64,000 nt of DNA from a bacterium (GTDB lineage Bacteria; DRYD01). A program made the position numbers and the translations under genes. Below the pieces are notes generated by a model. That model saw only the letters and a program-made list of their open reading frames with translations. It was not told the origin of the DNA and searched no databases. The stretch spans positions 19,474 to 83,473 of the forward strand of contig JAUQQQ010000006.1 of assembly GCA_030549815.1 (NCBI GenBank), written 5' to 3'. Positions within the stretch are counted from its first letter, which is position 1. Each line of letters starts with the position of its first letter. Below are positions 32,585-45,371 of the stretch, piece by piece.

Positions 32585-33303
32585 ACTTAAGCAAGGTAAT
32601 TAATAATATTGATAACATAGAGAATAAAATTCAGTATCACTTTAGAGATAAGCTTTTATTGATTCAATCTTTTATTCATAGCTCTGTTTGTAATGGTTTT
32701 TGTCAGATAGAATTGGATGGAGGGTCTGTGGTTATTGGTAATAATCAAAGATTGGAATTTTTGGGTGATGGAATTTTGGATTATATAGCAAGTGAGTATG
32801 TTTATTTGAAATATCCTACTTTCTCTGAAGATTTTCTTTCTTCTTATAAATCATTGATTGTGAATTATTATACACTTTACAAAGTTTGTGTTTCTTTGAG
32901 TTTACAAGAATTTTTGGTTTTTAACTATGAGAGTTTAGGTAGGAATAGTGCCAATATCAAGAATTATGGTGATATTGTTGAGGCTGTTATTGGAGCTATA
33001 TATTTAGACTCTCAAAATATGAACTGTGTTAAAGATTTTTTCTACAACATCGTATTAAGAATTTTTAATGATAATCTTGATGATATAGTTGAGAATTTGT
33101 TTGATTGGAAGGGATTTTTGCAGAGTTTGCTTCAAAAGAGGGGTATTGAAGTGCCTAAGTATAGTTTGATAGATAAAAATCAGGAAGGTTTTTATATAGT
33201 AGCGTATTTAAATGGTGTTGAGGTTAGCTCGGGTTTTGGAAGAACCAAAAAGGAAGCTGAAAAGCAAGCCGCACTGAATTTCATTAAAAAGATTGAACTG
33301 TAA
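32581..33303 (+). CDS. rnc: Ribonuclease III
   Basis: RNase III cuts double-stranded RNA in rRNA and mRNA processing. The 240-aa protein has the signature NQRLEFLGDGILDY (about residue 57) and the second active-site helix YGDIVEAVIGAIYLDS (about 130), with the catalytic Glu and Asp residues in place. The C-terminal dsRNA-binding domain (about 175-240) includes KGFLQSLLQKRG and GRTKKEAEKQAALNFI. Length is normal. The 3' end overlaps the convergent DUF3137-like operon by 20 bp, so antisense effects between the two transcripts are possible. Confidence 0.96.
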   Translation: MNLSKVINNIDNIENKIQYHFRDKLLLIQSFIHSSVCNGFCQIELDGGSVVIGNNQRLEFLGDGILDYIASEYVYLKYPTFSEDFLSSYKSLIVNYYTLYKVCVSLSLQEFLVFNYESLGRNSANIKNYGDIVEAVIGAIYLDSQNMNCVKDFFYNIVLRIFNDNLDDIVENLFDWKGFLQSLLQKRGIEVPKYSLIDKNQEGFYIVAYLNGVEVSSGFGRTKKEAEKQAALNFIKKIEL

Positions 33304-33994
33304 TTGATTTTATCAATTTAAATATTTCTTTTATTTCTTCGATAGCTTTATTTATATACTCGATTGAAATAGAATTTTGTGTATTATGTTTTAAAAATGG
33401 CTTTGTTCTATTTACTTTGACGTAAATGTAATTGGGCTCTTCTGAATAAAAAAAAGTCTCAAAATCCTTTATATTTTCTTGTTTTATTTTATCGATTGGT
33501 ATTTTTATAATTATTCCGTGGAATAGGGTTTTGGTTTCGTCGCGTATTTTGATAAGCTTTTGAATTTCTTCTTCCAAAATTGATTGTGCAAATTCAATAT
33601 TGATACTTTTGTATTCTATTTGAAAATAATTAAACTCGCGGTATATGGAAGATTCCGATGGACGAAATTTGAAAATTATAGGATCTTTAAAATTATTACT
33701 TTGCCAGTTATACTTGTTAATTTTAAATTCTTCGAATCCTTCCACTTTTTTTATATTTTCAAATAGTATTTTATTTATTTCTTCGGAATATTTGTCATCT
33801 ACAAGTAATATTTCTTTTATTGTAAATAACGCTAATAATAGTGGGAAAATGATGAAAAAGATGTTAATATTTAAGTGGATTAATATAATTATTGCAATTG
33901 CATTTGTAAAAGTAAAAACTTGACAAGATATGAGATTTTTTTGGTATTTCTTTCTTATGTTTTCTAATTCATTTATTATGATATCGTTTATCAT
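33284..33994 (-). CDS. DUF3137-like membrane protein, paralogue A
   Basis: The 236-aa protein starts with a helix (NDIIINELENIRKKY), has two adjacent membrane segments (about 25-65) and a soluble C-terminal domain. The domain has the pattern Y-x-x-I-E-x-A followed by a charged loop, then LFHGIIIKIP, which resembles DUF3137, where (F)xG ends a strand after a basic loop. Function is unknown. It is the last of five tandem relatives and the least typical, with FDF-poor loops. Its ATG overlaps the stop of paralogue B (ATGA). It shares about 75 near-identical residues with the decayed copy at 34.7-35.2 kb. Confidence 0.65.
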   Translation of the reverse strand: MINDIIINELENIRKKYQKNLISCQVFTFTNAIAIIILIHLNINIFFIIFPLLLALFTIKEILLVDDKYSEEINKILFENIKKVEGFEEFKINKYNWQSNNFKDPIIFKFRPSESSIYREFNYFQIEYKSINIEFAQSILEEEIQKLIKIRDETKTLFHGIIIKIPIDKIKQENIKDFETFFYSEEPNYIYVKVNRTKPFLKHNTQNSISIEYINKAIEEIKEIFKLIKSITVQSF

Positions 33995-34698
33995 GTTATT
34001 ACTATTTCTCTAATAATAGAGAAAGCTTTACTTATTTCTTCTATTTTTTCTTTGATATCTTTTTCTGATATTTTTCTGAAAATGTTAAATTCGAGGAATA
34101 ATGATTTTGTCTCTATTTTCACGTATATATGATTGGGGTTTTGTGGTATGGAAAATATGAAATAAGATTCATTTGTTACAAAATTTTGTTTTGTTAGTTG
34201 TTTTGGTATTTTTATTAATATTCCATTGAATAGTGGTACTATTTTTGTTCTTCTTTTTCCTTCACTATAGTATGATTCTATTTTGTATATCCTACATTCA
34301 GCTAATTCTATTTTTTGGTTTTTGTATTCTATTTCTAAATAGTCTTCTTCGTGACAATCCGTTGATGAAGGATACAAAAATAATGATACTTCCCTAAAGG
34401 TGTTACTGTGTGGAGAATATTTTTTTATAGTAAATTCATTAAATTCATCTACTTTTTTTATTACATTGAACAAGCAATTTTTTATTTCAAAAGAATATGA
34501 TTTTTGGAATGTTGGTATTACAAACAATAAAGATGCAGTAAAAAAACAACTGAAGCATATAAAATGTACAATACCGAATAGAAATGATAGAAATAGTGTC
34601 AGCAAAATAATCAAAATAATAGAGAAAAGATATAAAGAAAGCTTTCTAATATTATTATTCCTTATTTTTTCTAATTCATAGATAATGATTTCATTCAT
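33991..34698 (-). CDS. DUF3137-like membrane protein, paralogue B
   Basis: Starting at ATG 34698, which has a GGAGG site 8 bp upstream (the upstream ATG at 34719 would bypass it), the protein is 235 aa. It has an N-terminal helix, two membrane segments (about 20-65) and a soluble domain: EEDYLEIEYKNQKIELAEC, a basic GKRRTK loop, then PLFNGILIKIPKQL. This is close to the DUF3137 pattern. It is very similar to paralogue B2 at 35164-35886 (long identical stretches such as LTKQNFVTNESYF), so the two arose by recent tandem duplication. Confidence 0.65.
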   Translation of the reverse strand: MNEIIIYELEKIRNNNIRKLSLYLFSIILIILLTLFLSFLFGIVHFICFSCFFTASLLFVIPTFQKSYSFEIKNCLFNVIKKVDEFNEFTIKKYSPHSNTFREVSLFLYPSSTDCHEEDYLEIEYKNQKIELAECRIYKIESYYSEGKRRTKIVPLFNGILIKIPKQLTKQNFVTNESYFIFSIPQNPNHIYVKIETKSLFLEFNIFRKISEKDIKEKIEEISKAFSIIREIVIT

Positions 34699-35167
34699 TA
34701 TTTTGCCTCCATTATGCATTTTTTTACGATTGTTAGAATTTCTTTTATTTGTTCCAAGAATTCTTCTAAATTTTGTTGGTTTATTTTTTTAGGATATTAA
34801 TTTCAAACAGGTTTTTTATTTTATTTTTAACACTTCTTTTTATGGTTTGATTACGCAAGTTTTCAGAATCCAAAATAACAAAAACATTTTCGTTTTCTTT
34901 TACTATTATATTTTGATAAATGTTTTGAGGATTAAATATTTTTTCTGGTATTTTTATGATTATTCCTTTGTATTCTATTTGAAAATAATTGAACTCGCGG
35001 TATCTGTAAGATTTAGACGGACGAAATTTGAAAATTATAGGATCTTTAAAATTATTACTTTGCCAGTTATATTTGTTAATTTTAAATTCTTCGAATTCTT
35101 CCACTTTTTTTATATTTTCAAATAGGAAAATGTTTTCTAATTCATTTATTATGATATCGTTTATCAT
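34698..35167 (-). pseudogene. Mosaic, decayed DUF3137-like paralogue (A2)
   Basis: The intact part (34781-35167, 128 aa) matches paralogue A at its start (NDIIINELENI) and at KINKYNWQSNNFKDPIIFKF, but lacks both membrane segments and the middle of the soluble domain, through two in-frame deletions. From GIIIKIPEKIFNPQN on it matches paralogue C instead, so it is a hybrid. The frame stops after NILKK because an A-tract has seven bases where paralogue C has eight. Adding one A restores a C-like ending (QQNLEEFLEQIKEIL) up to a stop that overlaps paralogue B's ATG. Confidence 0.75.
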
Positions 35168-35886
35168 GTTATTACTATTTCTCTAATAATAGAGAAAACT
35201 TTACTTATTTCTTCTATTTTTTCTTTGATATCTTTTTCTGATATTTTTCTGAAAATGTTAAATTCGAGGAATTCCGATTTTGAATTTATTTTTATGTATA
35301 TATGATTGGGGTTTTGTGGTATGGAAAATATGAAATAAGATTCATTTGTTACAAAATTTTGCTTTGTTAATTGTTTTGGTATCTTTATTAATATACCTTT
35401 AAATAGGGTTATTGTTCTTGTTCTTCGTTTTCCTCCACTATAGTATGATTCTGTTTTTTCTATTTTACATTCAGCTAATTCTATTTTTTGGTTTTTGTAT
35501 TCTATTTCTAAATAGTCTTCTTCATAACAATTTGTTGATGAAGGATATAGAAAAACGGAAACATCTCTAAAAATAGAACTATGAGGTAAATATTTATTAA
35601 TTGTAAATTCATGAAATTCATCTATCTTATTTGTTATCTTGAATAAATAATTTTTTATTTGGAAAGAATATGATTTTTCAATGAAGGATATTATAAGGGC
35701 TGGAATTAATATTAACAAAATAGCGACGATAAATAAAATAAATATAGGATCTATACTATAAATGTAGTTAAATGAGAATGATATTATTAAGACGATGATA
35801 AAAAAGTAAAAAAGAAGATATAGAATGAGTTTTTTAAAATTATCTTTTCTTACTTTTTCAAATTCATAAATAATAATTTCATTCAT
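35164..35886 (-). CDS. DUF3137-like membrane protein, paralogue B2
   Basis: The 240-aa protein is a near-duplicate of paralogue B. It has two strong membrane segments (about 20-65), then the soluble part with EEDYLEIEYKNQKIELAEC, a GGKRRTRT loop and TLFKGILIKIP. The N-terminal membrane part differs from B much more than the soluble part does, so selection or gene conversion acts on the latter. The stop overlaps the start of the mosaic copy A2 by 4 bp. The ORF order B2-A2-B-A shows that a two-gene unit was duplicated. Confidence 0.65.
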   Translation of the reverse strand: MNEIIIYEFEKVRKDNFKKLILYLLFYFFIIVLIISFSFNYIYSIDPIFILFIVAILLILIPALIISFIEKSYSFQIKNYLFKITNKIDEFHEFTINKYLPHSSIFRDVSVFLYPSSTNCYEEDYLEIEYKNQKIELAECKIEKTESYYSGGKRRTRTITLFKGILIKIPKQLTKQNFVTNESYFIFSIPQNPNHIYIKINSKSEFLEFNIFRKISEKDIKEKIEEISKVFSIIREIVIT

Positions 35887-35889
35887 TTT

Positions 35890-36633
35890 TTACTCCTGTG
35901 TTGTATATCTTTTTATGATTGTTAGGATTGATTTTATTTGTTCAAGAAAGTTATTCAAGTTTTCCTGAGTTATTTTTTTTAGAATATTAATTTTTATATT
36001 TTGATGATGCAAGGTTTCTGAATCTAATAGTATGAAAGCGTTTTCGTTTTCTTTTACTATTATATTTTGGGGGATGTTTTGGGGATTAAATATTTTCTCT
36101 GGTATTTTTATGATTATTCCTTTGAAAATTTCTTTTTTAATTTTGTATTTTCCTGGTCCTGTAATTCTGAATACTTTTACTTTGGCTAATTCTATTATGT
36201 TTTCTTTATATTGTATTTGGAGGAAATCTTCTTCTATTACTTTGATGGGTTCTTGATTCTCTTCTCTAAAGTATTTCTTTAAAAAATTTCTAAAGAATGA
36301 AGAGTAGGATTTATAGGTGATTATTTTAAATTCATCGTATTCAGGAATTTTTTTTTGCAGGTTGAAGATGATTTTTTTTATTTCTTCGGAGTATTCTTTT
36401 GTTAAGTTGAAAGGTATTGAAATAGTAAACGCAAAAGTTAATATAGCTAAGAAAGCAAACAAAGAAGTTAGTTCTTCCCATATTTTATCGTGTAAACTCA
36501 ATTGCAGAGCTTTCCAAAAAATAAAGAGAATTATCATAAGTAATATTACCCCGACTAAAATTGAAATAATTATCTTCTTAATATAGTTTTTTCTTATGTT
36601 TTCCAGTTCTGAAAGTATGTATTCATCTAACAT
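35890..36633 (-). CDS. DUF3137-like membrane protein, paralogue C
   Basis: This 247-aa protein is the most complete of the group. It has an N-terminal helix (DEYILSELENIRKNY), two membrane segments (about 20-45 and 55-78) and a soluble domain with EEDFLQIQYKENIIELAKVKVF, a basic GKYKIKK loop and EIFKGIIIKIPEKIF. A C-terminal amphipathic helix (ENLNNFLEQIKSILTIIKRY) follows. It donated sequence to the mosaic copy A2. It lies 36 bp after the HExxH gene and 3 bp before B2, within the same minus-strand operon. Confidence 0.68.
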   Translation of the reverse strand: MLDEYILSELENIRKNYIKKIIISILVGVILLMIILFIFWKALQLSLHDKIWEELTSLFAFLAILTFAFTISIPFNLTKEYSEEIKKIIFNLQKKIPEYDEFKIITYKSYSSFFRNFLKKYFREENQEPIKVIEEDFLQIQYKENIIELAKVKVFRITGPGKYKIKKEIFKGIIIKIPEKIFNPQNIPQNIIVKENENAFILLDSETLHHQNIKINILKKITQENLNNFLEQIKSILTIIKRYTTQE

Positions 36634-39833: not shown

Positions 39834-40271
39834 TTATCTTTTTACTTTAACAATGGTTGTATCATTAAATCCTTTGCCTGAGTAATCATATTCTTCTTTA
39901 AATTTGAACATACTTCCAGGTCTTGCTTTGAAACCGTCTGCTATGGCTTGCATTGTTAATTGGATAAGCTCAACACTCTCAACTTTCTCATCTAAACTCT
40001 TCATATCTCTCTTGATGTTTTCTACATCTTGTTTTAAAACGTTAACATCTTGTTTTAAGATATTAACATCTTGTTTTAAGATATTAACATCTTGTTTTAA
40101 GATATTAACATCTTGTTTTAAGATATTAACATCTTGTTTTAAGATATTAACATCTTGTTTTAAAACGTTAACATCTTGTTTTAAATTTTGAATCTCTTCC
40201 TCTATTTTATCTAATTTATCTAATTTTTTCTTTATTTCACTTAATTCTTGCATGATTTGCTCGATATTCAC
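39834..40271 (-). CDS. Coiled-coil protein built on LKQDV heptads
   Basis: From the GTG at 40271 (AGGAAGGTG site just upstream) the protein is 145 aa. The N-terminal 25 residues form a heptad helix. Eight near-identical heptads follow, LKQDVNI or LKQDVNV, with Leu and Val in a/d positions, ideal for a parallel coiled coil. The last 50 residues (LIQLTMQAIADGFKARPGSMFKF and so on) are a distinct domain. An upstream ATG at 40307 would add 12 residues but lacks a ribosome-binding site. It is 36 bp upstream of the membrane-protein gene on the same strand, and may head the operon. Confidence 0.65.
   Translation of the reverse strand: MNIEQIMQELSEIKKKLDKLDKIEEEIQNLKQDVNVLKQDVNILKQDVNILKQDVNILKQDVNILKQDVNILKQDVNVLKQDVENIKRDMKSLDEKVESVELIQLTMQAIADGFKARPGSMFKFKEEYDYSGKGFNDTTIVKVKR
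40024..40191. repeat. Eight tandem copies of a 21-bp unit
   Basis: The plus-strand unit ACATCTTGTTTTAAGATATT (20 of its 21 bases) repeats eight times with a period of exactly 21 bp. Units 2-6 are identical; units 1 and 7 share a variant end (AAAACGTT) and unit 8 differs at its end. Each unit encodes one heptad of the coiled-coil gene, so unit gain or loss keeps the frame. Confidence 0.95.
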
Positions 40272-40387
40272 ATAAATCACCTTCCTATATAATTTTTTGT
40301 TTTGCAAATACTTCCATTTCCCATAATTAATTTTCTATGAATTACTTATATTCTCCTTTTGGTAAAAATTTTTTATATAAAATTTTT

Positions 40388-40451: not shown

Positions 40452-42230
40452 ATGAGCTCGATAAGTTTTGGAAGGTTTTATTACCATCAGTATTTCATAA
40501 ATAATGAAAAAACCTTCCTAGCAAAAATTGACAACACTTTACGTGAAATAAAAAACTTAATAAATACTGAGATCAAAGAATTATCTGGAATTATTCATGA
40601 GATAAAAAGTTATTTTGATTATGAAAAGGAAGATTTCAAAAGAAAGCATACTCTCGATTTTTTCAATAGTCATAATTACGACTCATGGTATAATTCAAAA
40701 TTGAAAAGTGTCAATGAAATAGGAATAAAAATAAAAAGACTAATAAAAGATTTATCGTTAGAAGGAATTATTCCTAATAGCAAACAAAACTGCCAAAAAT
40801 TAATTAAATTACTCCAAGAGTATCAATCAGATAGTCTTAAATTTACAAAAACTATTGAGTCATTGCAAAGCAAGATGGAAAAATTTGAATTACAAGAAAG
40901 AATGAACAATATAAATGAAAAGATTAAAAGTTTACAGATAAAAATTAATAATCCTTATATTTACGAATTTCTTAATTTGTTAAGTTTTGCTTTCAAAGAA
41001 GTAACCCAGGAATTTGATCCTTTTTCTTTTGACTATAACCAAAAGAAAGACAAGAAATTAAAAAGAGAATTATCTAATATTGAAAATTTCCTTGAAAATT
41101 TTGAACAGAGAATCACTAATTTTGAAAAATTACCGCTGGATAAAAAAGAAATGATATACAAACTTATTCAATTCTTTGAAAAATTTGGTGAACCAATTTA
41201 TGAATACAAAGTTTTACAAAATTTTGTAAATAAACTTAAGAATGAAAAGTATGGGATTGAGATTGAAGAGCAATTTGCTTTAATAAAATCGCAACTTACT
41301 GAAAAAACTATTAAAATAAACACACAAGAAATTCCAGAAAAATCAAAAGAAGATGAATTAGGAATTAAAGTAAAAAATTTAAAACGAAAAATAAAGGAAA
41401 AATTCCCACAGTTTTACGATGAAATTGAAAATAAATATTCAAATATTAAGGATTTAAAATTGCTCCTTGATTCTTTAGAGTTTGAATTTTTGAAATTAAA
41501 AAAACAGATTGTGGATGACTTTATTTATAGGCAAGAAATTGAAAATATCAAGAAAGAATTAATGGAGTTTTTCAAATCATTTTCAAATTTTCCTGAAATT
41601 GGTAAACCTGTTTTTCTTGAATTCAAAACAAATTTTGAAGACATTATGAAGTCCATCGATCATTATTTGGCAAAGAAAAATGTGGAAGAAAAAGATTATA
41701 TGTTAATAAAAAATAATGCTGATGAATTTATTCAAAAACTTGAAAGATTCTTATATCACTTAGAAAAAAAGAAAAAATCACAAGAATTTAAAAACATTAT
41801 AAAAGAAAAACTTAATGCAATTGGATACAGTGTGATCTTTGTTAATGATAAGGATGTGAGCTTTCTGGATACACCCTTTGATTTTGTTTATAAAATAATG
41901 TTGAAAATCGAGGATGATATTATTAAAGTCCAGTTTGTTAGAATTCTTGATGATAGTGAGACCTTGACGGAATACGAAAAACAAAAAGATATATACTATG
42001 CTGAAAGATGGTGCAATGATTATAAGAATTTATTAAATTTATTAGAAAAAAACGGGATTGTTATAAAACCTGAAAACATCATAGAACCCAATCAAAGAAT
42101 GAATTATTTATATATTTCTGAGCTTCCAGAATACCTTAGAAAACAGGCTTATGAATACTTTAAATCCTATCAAGGTAAGAAAACTAAAAGTATATCTGAA
42201 CAGCAAAAATTTCAAGAAAAAATAGAATAA
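40452..42230 (+). CDS. 592-aa coiled-coil protein with a distinct C-terminal domain
   Basis: Family not recognised. Residues 1-30 contain SISFGRFYYHQYF. From about 25 to 440 the chain is highly charged helix with heptad stretches (for example MEKFELQERMNNINEKIKSLQIKI). Residues about 445-580 form a compact alpha/beta domain: IIKEKLNAIGYSVIFVND, DFVYKIMLKIEDDIIKVQFVRIL, YAERWCNDYKNLLNLLEKNG. It has no membrane segment. The kinase gene follows at 15 bp in the same operon, so it may be a scaffold or a substrate of the kinase. The ribosome-binding site is weak, unlike that of the kinase (GGGGAGAAAGAGG). Confidence 0.7.
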   Translation: MSSISFGRFYYHQYFINNEKTFLAKIDNTLREIKNLINTEIKELSGIIHEIKSYFDYEKEDFKRKHTLDFFNSHNYDSWYNSKLKSVNEIGIKIKRLIKDLSLEGIIPNSKQNCQKLIKLLQEYQSDSLKFTKTIESLQSKMEKFELQERMNNINEKIKSLQIKINNPYIYEFLNLLSFAFKEVTQEFDPFSFDYNQKKDKKLKRELSNIENFLENFEQRITNFEKLPLDKKEMIYKLIQFFEKFGEPIYEYKVLQNFVNKLKNEKYGIEIEEQFALIKSQLTEKTIKINTQEIPEKSKEDELGIKVKNLKRKIKEKFPQFYDEIENKYSNIKDLKLLLDSLEFEFLKLKKQIVDDFIYRQEIENIKKELMEFFKSFSNFPEIGKPVFLEFKTNFEDIMKSIDHYLAKKNVEEKDYMLIKNNADEFIQKLERFLYHLEKKKKSQEFKNIIKEKLNAIGYSVIFVNDKDVSFLDTPFDFVYKIMLKIEDDIIKVQFVRILDDSETLTEYEKQKDIYYAERWCNDYKNLLNLLEKNGIVIKPENIIEPNQRMNYLYISELPEYLRKQAYEYFKSYQGKKTKSISEQQKFQEKIE

Positions 42231-42245: not shown

Positions 42246-45200
42246 ATGGAGGAAAATGAAAAGGAAGAAAAAAATCCGGAAGAGACAACAACATTAGAGC
42301 AAACTGTATTAGAAAAAACTATTCATCAATCCAAGATATTACAAAAAGAAGAACGAACAACTAAAAACAAAGAAGAGAGTGAGTTAGAAGGAGATTTTCA
42401 TGAATACAAAATTGAAAAACAATTGGATTTTTTAGGAGCAGAAGCTGATTACTTTCTTTTAAGTAAAAATAACCAGTATTTTTTCTTAAAATATTATCGC
42501 AGGAATTATAAGCCAAGAAATTTTGAAAAAATACTTCAACTATCAAAAGAATTTCCGCAGCATATCATCCAAATTGTAGATTATGGGGAGCATAAAGGAA
42601 GGTTTTTTGAAATTCAGGAATACGCCGAATGTAACCTTAAAGATTTCTGTATTAAATATGAAGTTCAAAAGAATATCGAGTTGATAGAAAAAATAATTAG
42701 TGAAATTACGGATGCCCTTTCTGCTCTACATAAAAGTAATATAATTCATAGGGATATAAAGCCACAGAATATCCTTGTTAGAAAGATGGATCCATTGGAT
42801 CTTGTTTTGACAGATTTTGGGATTTCCTCTTTTGTAGAAGAAGATGTATCCAAAGTTTTGACAGAGAATGTTAGGGGAACTTTCCTTTACAGTGCTCCCG
42901 AGACATTTTCGGGATTTTTTGGAAAAGAAGCAGATTATTGGTCATTTGGAATGGTATTACTTGAAATAATAACAGGTCAAAATCCTTTTGCTTTACTTCC
43001 GCGGCAAGTAATAATGAATAACTTATTTACCCGTGAGGTTCCCATACCTGAAGATATTGATGAAATTGTTTATGGACAGAAAAAAACAAATAGAAAATCT
43101 TTGAAAAAATTATTAATGGGACTACTTACAAGAGATCCAAGCTTAAGATGGAAGGATAAAGAAATATATACGTGGTTGAAAGGAGATGAAAATATAGAAG
43201 TTTTCTATGCTTTAAATACTGAAGATGAAAAAGTTAAAGAATACATAAATGAAGGAATAAAAAATGTGCAGAGTATAAAAGAATGGGTAAAGTTAGGGAT
43301 AACACCAAAATATGCAAAAGTTTTTGATAAAAAATCAATAAAACCACAAGAAATAGAAAAATTAATTTCCAAGAATATAAGCCTTGATGAAATAATAGTT
43401 TTTGTTGAAAAGGGTTATGAGGTAAATCAAATAATAGAAATATTGGATAATGGAATAAGTTTAAAAGAATATCTCGTTTGGCTTGAAAAGGGTTTTACTT
43501 TACAAGAAATTATAAAATACAAGAATAGTAATCTTAGTTTAGATGAGGCATTGGAATGGAAAAAACAATTGGCAAATTTTAACCAAAGCTTATTGAAAAT
43601 ACCTGAGAATGAGATTATAGAATGGATAAAAAATGGATTTAATGAAGAGGAGATAATTGAATGGAAACAGACGAATCTTAAACCTGAAATTGCAAAGGAA
43701 TGGAAAAAATTAAGATTGTCTGCTATTGAAACAATTAAAATAAAACAAAAAGGTATTTCATTGGCAGAAGTTATAGAATGGAAGGAAGAATTTGAAAAGA
43801 ACAATTTAAAATTTATTGTCAGTGATTTCTTAGAATGGCGTCAAGTTAAGGTTTCTTTCCAGAATGCTATAAAATTGATAAAAAGCAAAGTTCCTCCAAA
43901 TATTGCACAGGATTTATTGGCAAGAGGCTTAAATGTTCAAGATATTATACAATTGGTAAATGAAAATATTCCATTGGTTTCATTAAAAAAATGGATAGAT
44001 ATGGGTTTTAGTTTGAATGATATTCCATATCTAATAAAGGGTAATCTGAGGGAAGAACAAATTCAGAGAATATTGGGAATGGGAATAAAAAAGGAATCCA
44101 TTTTACAGTTAGTAAAAGGAAATATTTCATTAGATACTATAGAAGAAATTATCAATCAAGGTTTTACTGTTAAGGATTTAGAGGATTTTCTACAATTACT
44201 TATTTTTGGTGTTTCCGTAAAGGAAATAGTAGAATGGAAGAAAAAAGGGTTTAGTGGATATGATGCTTTGGGATGGAAGAAACATGGATTTACTCCACAG
44301 GAAGCAGGGAAATGGAAAAATGAAAAATTTAATCCTTCAACGGCAAGATTATTAAAGGAGAATGGATTGTCAGTGGAGGAAGCAAAAGAATGGATATCTT
44401 GTGGATTTAATATTGATGAAATAGTGGAACTAAAGAGAAGAAATTTTTCACTGTTGGAAGCTGTTAAATTAAGAAAAGAATTATCAGATGCTGGAATATC
44501 TATAGAGGAAAAATTTGAATTGGAGATGTATGGTTTTACTATCTCTGAGGCAAAGAAATGGAAGGATGTAGGATTTAGTATTACAGAAGCTTATCAATGG
44601 AAAGAAATGAGTTTTGGACCTATTGATGCAATGCAGTGGAAAAAAATAGGCTTTGACCCTAATGAATCGATAAAGTGGAAAAGAGCAGGATTTACTCCTA
44701 ATGAAGCAATACAGTGGATAAAGAAAGATTTTTCCTTAGAGCAAGCAAAAAAATGGAAAGAAAAAGGTTTTAATCCTGTAGATGCAAGAAAGCAAGAGTT
44801 GGAAATGTGGATATCACAAGGATTTACTAAGGATGAAATAAGTGAATGGATAAAGTGTGGATTTGACGTAATTAATGCTAAACTTTGGAAGGAAAAGGGA
44901 TTTACAGCAAGGGGAGCTATGGAATGGAAAAATAATGGGTTTTATTTAGAGGAAGCTTTTGAATGGTCTGGATTAAAGAATAATAATAATGCAGCAAGTG
45001 GATGCCTATTATTACTTTTATCTTTATTATTTCCACCTCTTTTGATTTTTTTCATTTTTTATTCTATTTCTTATCCTTTTAATCTTGATCTCTTAATTGG
45101 ATTTTCCCCTTTGGAAGCAAAAGAATGGAAAAAATATGGATTCAATTGGGAACAAGCAGCAAAACTGCAAAAATCAAATGTTAGTCTTGAGGAAGCTGTA

Positions 45201-45371
45201 AAATGGAAAAATAATGGATTTTCTGTGGAAGAAACAATAAAATATAAAACGAAAGGTTATGATATAACCCGAGCAAGGAAAGAAAAAAAACTGTTGACAA
45301 TTGTTTGGGTGGTTGTTTTTCTCTTATATTTCTGTTTTTTATATTTCTTTTGCAAATTTCTTGGTTGGTAA
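42246..45371 (+). CDS. Membrane Ser/Thr protein kinase with ~44 copies of a 13-residue repeat
   Basis: Residues 50-315 are a eukaryotic-like kinase: Lys82 in FFLKYYRR, catalytic loop IIHRDIKPQNIL (His168-Arg-Asp170), metal loop TDFGISS (Asp190) and GTFLYSAPET. All catalytic residues are present. From residue 352 to about 1010 the chain is an array of about 44 units of 13 residues, consensus F-(S/T)-x-x-E-A-x-x-W-K-x-x-G. The S/T-x-x-E start is a helix capping box and the Gly a helix end, so each unit is one short helix in a solenoid. A hydrophobic stretch (919-952) interrupts the array five units before its end, and a final membrane helix (1014-1036) closes the protein. Confidence 0.85.
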   Translation: MEENEKEEKNPEETTTLEQTVLEKTIHQSKILQKEERTTKNKEESELEGDFHEYKIEKQLDFLGAEADYFLLSKNNQYFFLKYYRRNYKPRNFEKILQLSKEFPQHIIQIVDYGEHKGRFFEIQEYAECNLKDFCIKYEVQKNIELIEKIISEITDALSALHKSNIIHRDIKPQNILVRKMDPLDLVLTDFGISSFVEEDVSKVLTENVRGTFLYSAPETFSGFFGKEADYWSFGMVLLEIITGQNPFALLPRQVIMNNLFTREVPIPEDIDEIVYGQKKTNRKSLKKLLMGLLTRDPSLRWKDKEIYTWLKGDENIEVFYALNTEDEKVKEYINEGIKNVQSIKEWVKLGITPKYAKVFDKKSIKPQEIEKLISKNISLDEIIVFVEKGYEVNQIIEILDNGISLKEYLVWLEKGFTLQEIIKYKNSNLSLDEALEWKKQLANFNQSLLKIPENEIIEWIKNGFNEEEIIEWKQTNLKPEIAKEWKKLRLSAIETIKIKQKGISLAEVIEWKEEFEKNNLKFIVSDFLEWRQVKVSFQNAIKLIKSKVPPNIAQDLLARGLNVQDIIQLVNENIPLVSLKKWIDMGFSLNDIPYLIKGNLREEQIQRILGMGIKKESILQLVKGNISLDTIEEIINQGFTVKDLEDFLQLLIFGVSVKEIVEWKKKGFSGYDALGWKKHGFTPQEAGKWKNEKFNPSTARLLKENGLSVEEAKEWISCGFNIDEIVELKRRNFSLLEAVKLRKELSDAGISIEEKFELEMYGFTISEAKKWKDVGFSITEAYQWKEMSFGPIDAMQWKKIGFDPNESIKWKRAGFTPNEAIQWIKKDFSLEQAKKWKEKGFNPVDARKQELEMWISQGFTKDEISEWIKCGFDVINAKLWKEKGFTARGAMEWKNNGFYLEEAFEWSGLKNNNNAASGCLLLLLSLLFPPLLIFFIFYSISYPFNLDLLIGFSPLEAKEWKKYGFNWEQAAKLQKSNVSLEEAVKWKNNGFSVEETIKYKTKGYDITRARKEKKLLTIVWVVVFLLYFCFLYFFCKFLGW

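Follow-up and report, generated by a model that had tools for sequence, protein, structure and literature searches.

The window analysed here, a 64,000-nucleotide stretch of a bacterial contig, carries on its forward strand a gene (42246..45371) for a 1041-residue protein in which a Ser/Thr protein kinase domain is followed by a predicted solenoid of 47 units, each of 13 residues, interrupted by a hydrophobic insert and closed by a hydrophobic tail. The initial annotation had given the open reading frame exactly these coordinates. We would give an even chance to the reading of the product as a membrane-anchored kinase whose one-helix solenoid arm spaces the kinase and docks partners. The kinase domain, the repeat unit, its predicted one-helix geometry, the relatives and the hydrophobic tails on which this reading draws were all computed.

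The kinase domain occupies about residues 51-316 (42396..43193, + strand). A Pfam search matched it to PF00069 at 116.2 bits against a cut-off of 31.7, and the motifs HRD (168-170, within HRDIKPQN), DFG (190), APE (217) and FFLK (79-82) are present. The glycine-rich loop is non-canonical, reading GAEAD at position 64 where GxGxxG is usual, and the PF00069 match begins at profile position 54. The domain had been described as complete, which holds for HRD, DFG, APE and the PF00069 score but not for the glycine-rich loop. By score and motifs the protein is a Hanks-type Ser/Thr kinase, and its catalysis is predicted. The PknB PASTA kinase model NF033483 reached 94.8 bits against a cut-off of 450 and covered the kinase part only; no PASTA domain was matched in the protein. 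Defence kinases were also considered. The best PADLOC matches (PD-T4-6, mad6) cover residues 67-315 only, that is, the kinase domain alone, which leaves a role in defence unsupported; a PADLOC search of three neighbouring proteins gave no match.

Neither Pfam nor flank comparison yielded a functional clue from the genes adjoining the kinase-repeat gene. A 592-residue protein with no assigned function is encoded immediately upstream (40452..42230, + strand), ending 15 bp before the kinase-repeat gene, and is a possible operon partner; of its homologues in the genus, both of the two whose flanks were read are not adjacent to such a kinase. Elsewhere in the window, the - strand encodes a 157-residue protein (39834-40307) of near-identical seven-residue units (LKQDVNI) forming a heptad coiled coil, for which Pfam returned generic coiled-coil matches only. 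Five small membrane-protein-like genes of 128-247 residues, also on the - strand (33284-36633), resemble tandemly arranged paralogues of related types.

An ungapped unit profile divided residues 339-1017 into 47 units of 13 residues. The initial annotation had recognised a 13-residue array after the kinase and estimated about 44 units of exactly this length; the array stands, the number is 47, and the spacing is exact at 40 of the 46 junctions, the remaining six carrying inserts of 9, 6, 3, 4, 5 and 41 residues. These inserts delimit seven blocks, all on the + strand: units 1-8 (residues 339-442, 43260..43571), 9-13 (452-516, 43599..43793), 14-23 (523-652, 43812..44201), 24-30 (656-746, 44211..44483), 31-37 (751-841, 44496..44768), 38-42 (847-911, 44784..44978) and 43-47 (953-1017, 45102..45296). 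The 13-residue period is far above chance. BLOSUM62 autocorrelation gave z = 17.2 at lag 13, 14.5 at lag 26, 9.1 at lag 39 and 8.8 at lag 52, and the segmentation score of the array was 805, while 100 shuffled sequences reached 29 at most. Of the two tests the autocorrelation is cleaner, because the unit profile was partly trained on the window protein itself. Tandem repetition at the DNA level is confined to 44619-44777, with a period of 39 bp and mostly inside the fifth block, so that recent duplication is apparent for some units only, the majority having diverged.

Residue preferences within the unit are marked. Position 1 is hydrophobic in 45/47 units and position 6 is A, I, L, V, F or M in 42/47; position 2 is S, T, N or D in 35/47 (background 18%), position 5 is E, D or Q in 35/47 (background 20%) and position 13 is G or N in 34/47 (background 12%). 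At position 9 a large hydrophobic residue is found in 46 of the 47 units, being W in 26, against a background of 37%. The pattern lends itself to interpretation as a hydrophobic staple and a capping box, both established elements of helix capping. Placed on the predicted helix described below, position 2 would be the N-cap and position 5 the N3 residue of a capping box, positions 1 and 6 would be N' and N4 of a hydrophobic staple, and position 13, lying after the helix, would act as its stop.

Structure prediction with AF2 gave regular tandem helices. For residues 653-915, which span the fourth to sixth blocks, the model had a mean pLDDT of 93.5 and a pTM of 0.70 and contained 19 helices, one per unit. 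The typical helix has nine residues at unit positions 3-11 and is followed by a four-residue turn at positions 12, 13, 1 and 2; it lengthens to 13-14 residues at the four- and five-residue insertions and at the C-terminal end. The alignment behind this model held 13 rows, some of them the window protein's own repeats. A full-length model, which also takes in the first three blocks and the last, shows the helices at the same 13-residue spacing throughout 339-1017, with lower confidence; its kinase part remained unfolded, as the alignment supplied just two kinase rows. One capped helix per unit is very probable as a prediction, and better supported than the docking role discussed below. The initial annotation had expected one short helix per 13 residues, with the S/T-x-x-E capping box and the glycine stop at its ends, and both the helix and its boundary signals fall where it put them. 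The array might instead be a disordered K/E-rich tail whose predicted helices reflect a habit of AlphaFold. Its composition is indeed K/E-rich, the alignment is shallow, and AF2 can over-predict helices in repetitive sequences. Against this, F, A, W and G are conserved by position across distant lineages, pLDDT is at least 90 for 241 of the 263 residues modelled, and the glycine and N-cap positions match the predicted helix ends. We regard disorder as very improbable.

Two hydrophobic stretches accompany the array. The first lies five units from its end, as the initial annotation had noted, and was delimited by the unit profile and hydropathy to residues 912-952 (44979..45101, + strand). The full-length AF2 model places two low-confidence helices there (910-928 and 930-942), and the insert is a candidate for one transmembrane pass or for a hairpin kinked at PP. 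The second, found by hydropathy at the very C-terminus, comprises residues 1018-1041 (45297..45368, + strand); it coincides with a predicted helix at 1007-1038 and is probably transmembrane. Hydrophobic segments inside the array occur in some relatives as well as in the window protein (912-952), as in copy L032 of genome G004, introduced below. If such segments are single passes, part of the array would lie across the membrane, a point against the reading given at the outset.

The kinase-repeat protein was the only protein found in its own genome with the 13-residue repeat; the other kinases there are without it. When the single window protein was used as query in a genome scan, no named relative was recovered. 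Relatives were found with a narrow pattern, WK[DK]AGF[TS]P. The repeat was present in 5 of 386 genomes sampled across the domain, the window's own included. Two genomes share with the window both the kinase subgroup and the 13-residue repeats: G004, from the same family, and Candidatus Calescibacterium nevadense (loci L077 and L131). G004 has three kinase-repeat loci, with 18, 28 and 32 units, and one repeat protein free of a kinase. C. nevadense has an 817-residue open kinase fragment with the repeats and a separate 937-residue fragment of about 64 units with C-terminal hydrophobic segments; the unit counts, about 30 and about 64, come from two incomplete genes. Of the G004 copies one has C-terminal hydrophobic segments, as does C. 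nevadense L131.

The G004 loci differ from the window gene in that their kinase frames are broken at the activation loop. All three copies have an identical break before APE (GGAAC[AT]ATAGATAAGCACC); the regions concerned are L031:8674-10368, L032:2959-4665 and L033:8652-9659, each together with the DNA adjoining it upstream on the coding strand. Between copies, dN/dS was 0.04-0.12 for the N-terminal parts and 0.05-0.08 for the C-terminal parts, and both halves look to be under purifying selection. There are hints in these sequences of recoding, of a split kinase, or of a break spread via gene conversion.

The repeat also occurs outside kinases. In G026, whose contig C73 is the record DX4.bin27, a protein of L034 has an N-terminal hydrophobic segment and 27 units. 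RIFOXYA12_FULL_61_11 has a 1898-codon open reading frame with repeats and an internal lipoprotein-like signal (MSEHASSRLVSLFCALLLLGC), in which units are spaced by 13, 14 and 23 residues; this lipoprotein-like array (L069:5453-11149, - strand) repeats at a higher order every 50 residues (23+13+14). For the phylum that includes G014, matches came from 34 of 46 genomes; they lie in open frames about 150-560 residues long, some of which also contain TPR. Similar units were found on two actinobacterial replicons, of Euzebya pacifica and Nonomuraea gerenzanensis. One phage contig, IMGVR_UViG_3300042965_000182, encodes repeat proteins of 400, 179 and 196 residues, three in all and none with a kinase, near a protein with weak matches to tail proteins; tblastn of phages gave no repeat match, and further viral scans found nothing beyond this contig. 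Four proteins of the same contig (L076:5716-6918, L076:7318-7905, L130:1851-2390 and L130:2397-2987), three of them the repeat proteins, share a short helix-like N-terminal peptide, about KISEKLLKIAEELL, possibly a tag for targeting or packaging.

In a tree of the kinase domains, the repeat kinases of the window, G004 and C. nevadense form one group (support 88/90). This group adjoins a pair of G004/G005 kinases with a different middle region (100/100), and the two together belong to a set of eight that has full support. The paralogues beside the repeat kinases share the C-terminal hydrophobic segments and differ in the middle region, which suggests a design of kinase, middle and membrane segment in which the middle is exchangeable. 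The window genome itself has on contig C1 a tandem pair of near-identical kinases of 719 and 724 residues (L038:7852-10011 and L038:10016-12190), with C-terminal hydrophobic segments and an unassigned middle region; Pfam matched only kinase models in the first. Placement of C. nevadense in the window's phylum was considered and found no support. Its RpoA is 39% identical to that of the window genome, while the genomes tested from outside the phylum gave 35-43% and those inside it 61-79%. As its RpoA is no closer than that of the outside genomes tested, the kinase-repeat fusion is common to distant lineages, and we infer that it was probably spread by transfer.

The conserved core and the variable positions were compared between window, C. 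nevadense and phage units; the variable positions are mainly 4, 7, 8, 11 and 12. The C. nevadense repeats are far more uniform than those of the window, with near-uniform core positions (F in 56/64 units, A in 57/64, W in 58/64), and the window units are more diverse at almost every position. In the reading we favour, the C-terminus would hold the kinase at the membrane, with the solenoid of 47 short helices lying between the two. Each 13-residue unit would be a self-contained capped helix, in which the hydrophobic residue at position 1 and A or I at position 6 form a hydrophobic staple, S or T at position 2 and E at position 5 a capping box, W or L at position 9 packs inward and G at position 13 terminates the helix; successive units would stack as a continuous rod or superhelix. 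Positions 1, 6, 9 and 13 would thus build the stack and the variable positions would offer a surface for partners or substrates, making the array most likely both an adjustable spacer and a docking scaffold. If the variable surface docks partners or substrates, the kinase would act on what docks along the arm. We infer the membrane side, the docking and the substrates. The arm is likely to be fast-evolving, and the great differences in array length between relatives fit growth via block duplication.

In a rival reading the array is a mechanical rod or spacer only, binding no specific ligand, and the number of units sets nothing but its reach. The contexts of the repeat are very diverse, from kinases, a lipoprotein-like frame and an N-terminally anchored protein to TPR and phage proteins, and the near-uniform core in C. 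nevadense is what would be expected where the stack alone is selected. The window units, however, are more diverse than those of C. nevadense, beyond what a pure rod would need, and we consider a purely passive role rather unlikely. Because the repeats also occur without a kinase, they have no kinase-specific role, which counts against the reading we favour.

The initial annotation had known of no named family with this repeat. No curated family describes the 13-residue unit, and a named 13-residue one-helix repeat was not found in the literature; one model, PF25296 (Decapeptide, of DotG/IcmE), does match weakly, and two relatives exceed its cut-off. It was the sole repeat model with a meaningful match in the profile libraries searched. 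The window protein scored 30.2 bits, below the curated cut-off of 45, while the long relatives from C. nevadense and RIFOXYA12 reached 93.6 and 86.7 bits; the family is built on a 10-residue unit and the window period is 13. The NCBIfam DotG model gave 20.6 bits against a cut-off of 750. A search of PDB sequences with the repeat region alone found no match, and the 13-residue profile matched IcmE/DotG at E = 4.6e-18, with a three-residue gap per unit.

It is tentatively possible that the repeats branched off from the DotG/IcmE decapeptide and diverged, so sharing its ancestry; this possibility concerns origin and fits either functional reading. The profile match, the two scores above the PF25296 cut-off and the mixture of 13-, 14- and 23-residue spacings in the RIFOXYA12 protein argue for it, and that array is possibly a bridge between 10- and 13-residue units. 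The window protein itself falls short in both score and unit length, and the profile match is summed over many short stretches, which could arise from any series of capped helices with GF at their ends. From the three-residue gap in the alignment the 13-residue unit looks like a decapeptide plus one helical turn; the two units are similar in design and possibly related, and the window protein is not filed in PF25296. We think it unlikely, though worth stating, that there is a separate fold class of one-helix solenoids with units of 10, 13 or 14 residues, serving as variable-length docking arms of bacterial membrane kinases and envelope proteins, with a free phage form perhaps competing for the same partners. 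The profile libraries searched hold no model of the 13-residue unit, so long carriers are probably annotated as hypothetical proteins. If the predicted geometry is true, few of the helical repeats known to form solenoids would be as short as this unit, and as all its helix-capping signals can be read in the sequence, it would be useful for protein design and for the study of repeat-protein growth.

Among known systems, the PASTA-type kinases PknB and StkP share with the window protein a bacterial Hanks-type Ser/Thr kinase domain and differ at the C-terminus, where the hydrophobic tail of the window protein ends the chain with nothing beyond it. Two-helix alpha-solenoids (TPR, PPR, TALE, mTERF) resemble the array as elongated helix stacks, and weak Foldseek matches included MTERF4 and TALE-like proteins. 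Their unit, however, takes some 30-35 residues to form a helical hairpin, as in the TALE repeat (PMC3978159), whereas that of the window is a single nine-residue helix per 13 residues; the initial annotation had rightly called it shorter than TPR, PPR, HEAT or Sel1 units, and none of the Pfam models for these matched the window protein. Foldseek against the PDB detected no overall likeness, with query TM-scores of at most 0.26 among the matches listed, and a search of viral structures gave no match at E <= 0.001. The best PDB E-value, 1e-4, was for the designed left-handed alpha/alpha toroid 5byo, which likewise has tandem short helices but is a closed ring and globally dissimilar (TM-score 0.19). 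The DotG/IcmE decapeptide (PF25296; PDB 7muc and others) shares the tandem S/T...E motif, a likely helical stretch and the G-F turn. Its 10-residue unit is about one helical turn shorter, its core residue is L in place of A..W and, unlike the window protein, it is part of a type IV secretion channel. In the cryo-EM paper (PMC8486379) the modelled parts of DotG are residues 791-824 and about 857-1046, neither of which includes the matched repeats. The geometry predicted for the 13-residue unit, if right, suggests a structure for the decapeptide of that channel that can be put to the test.
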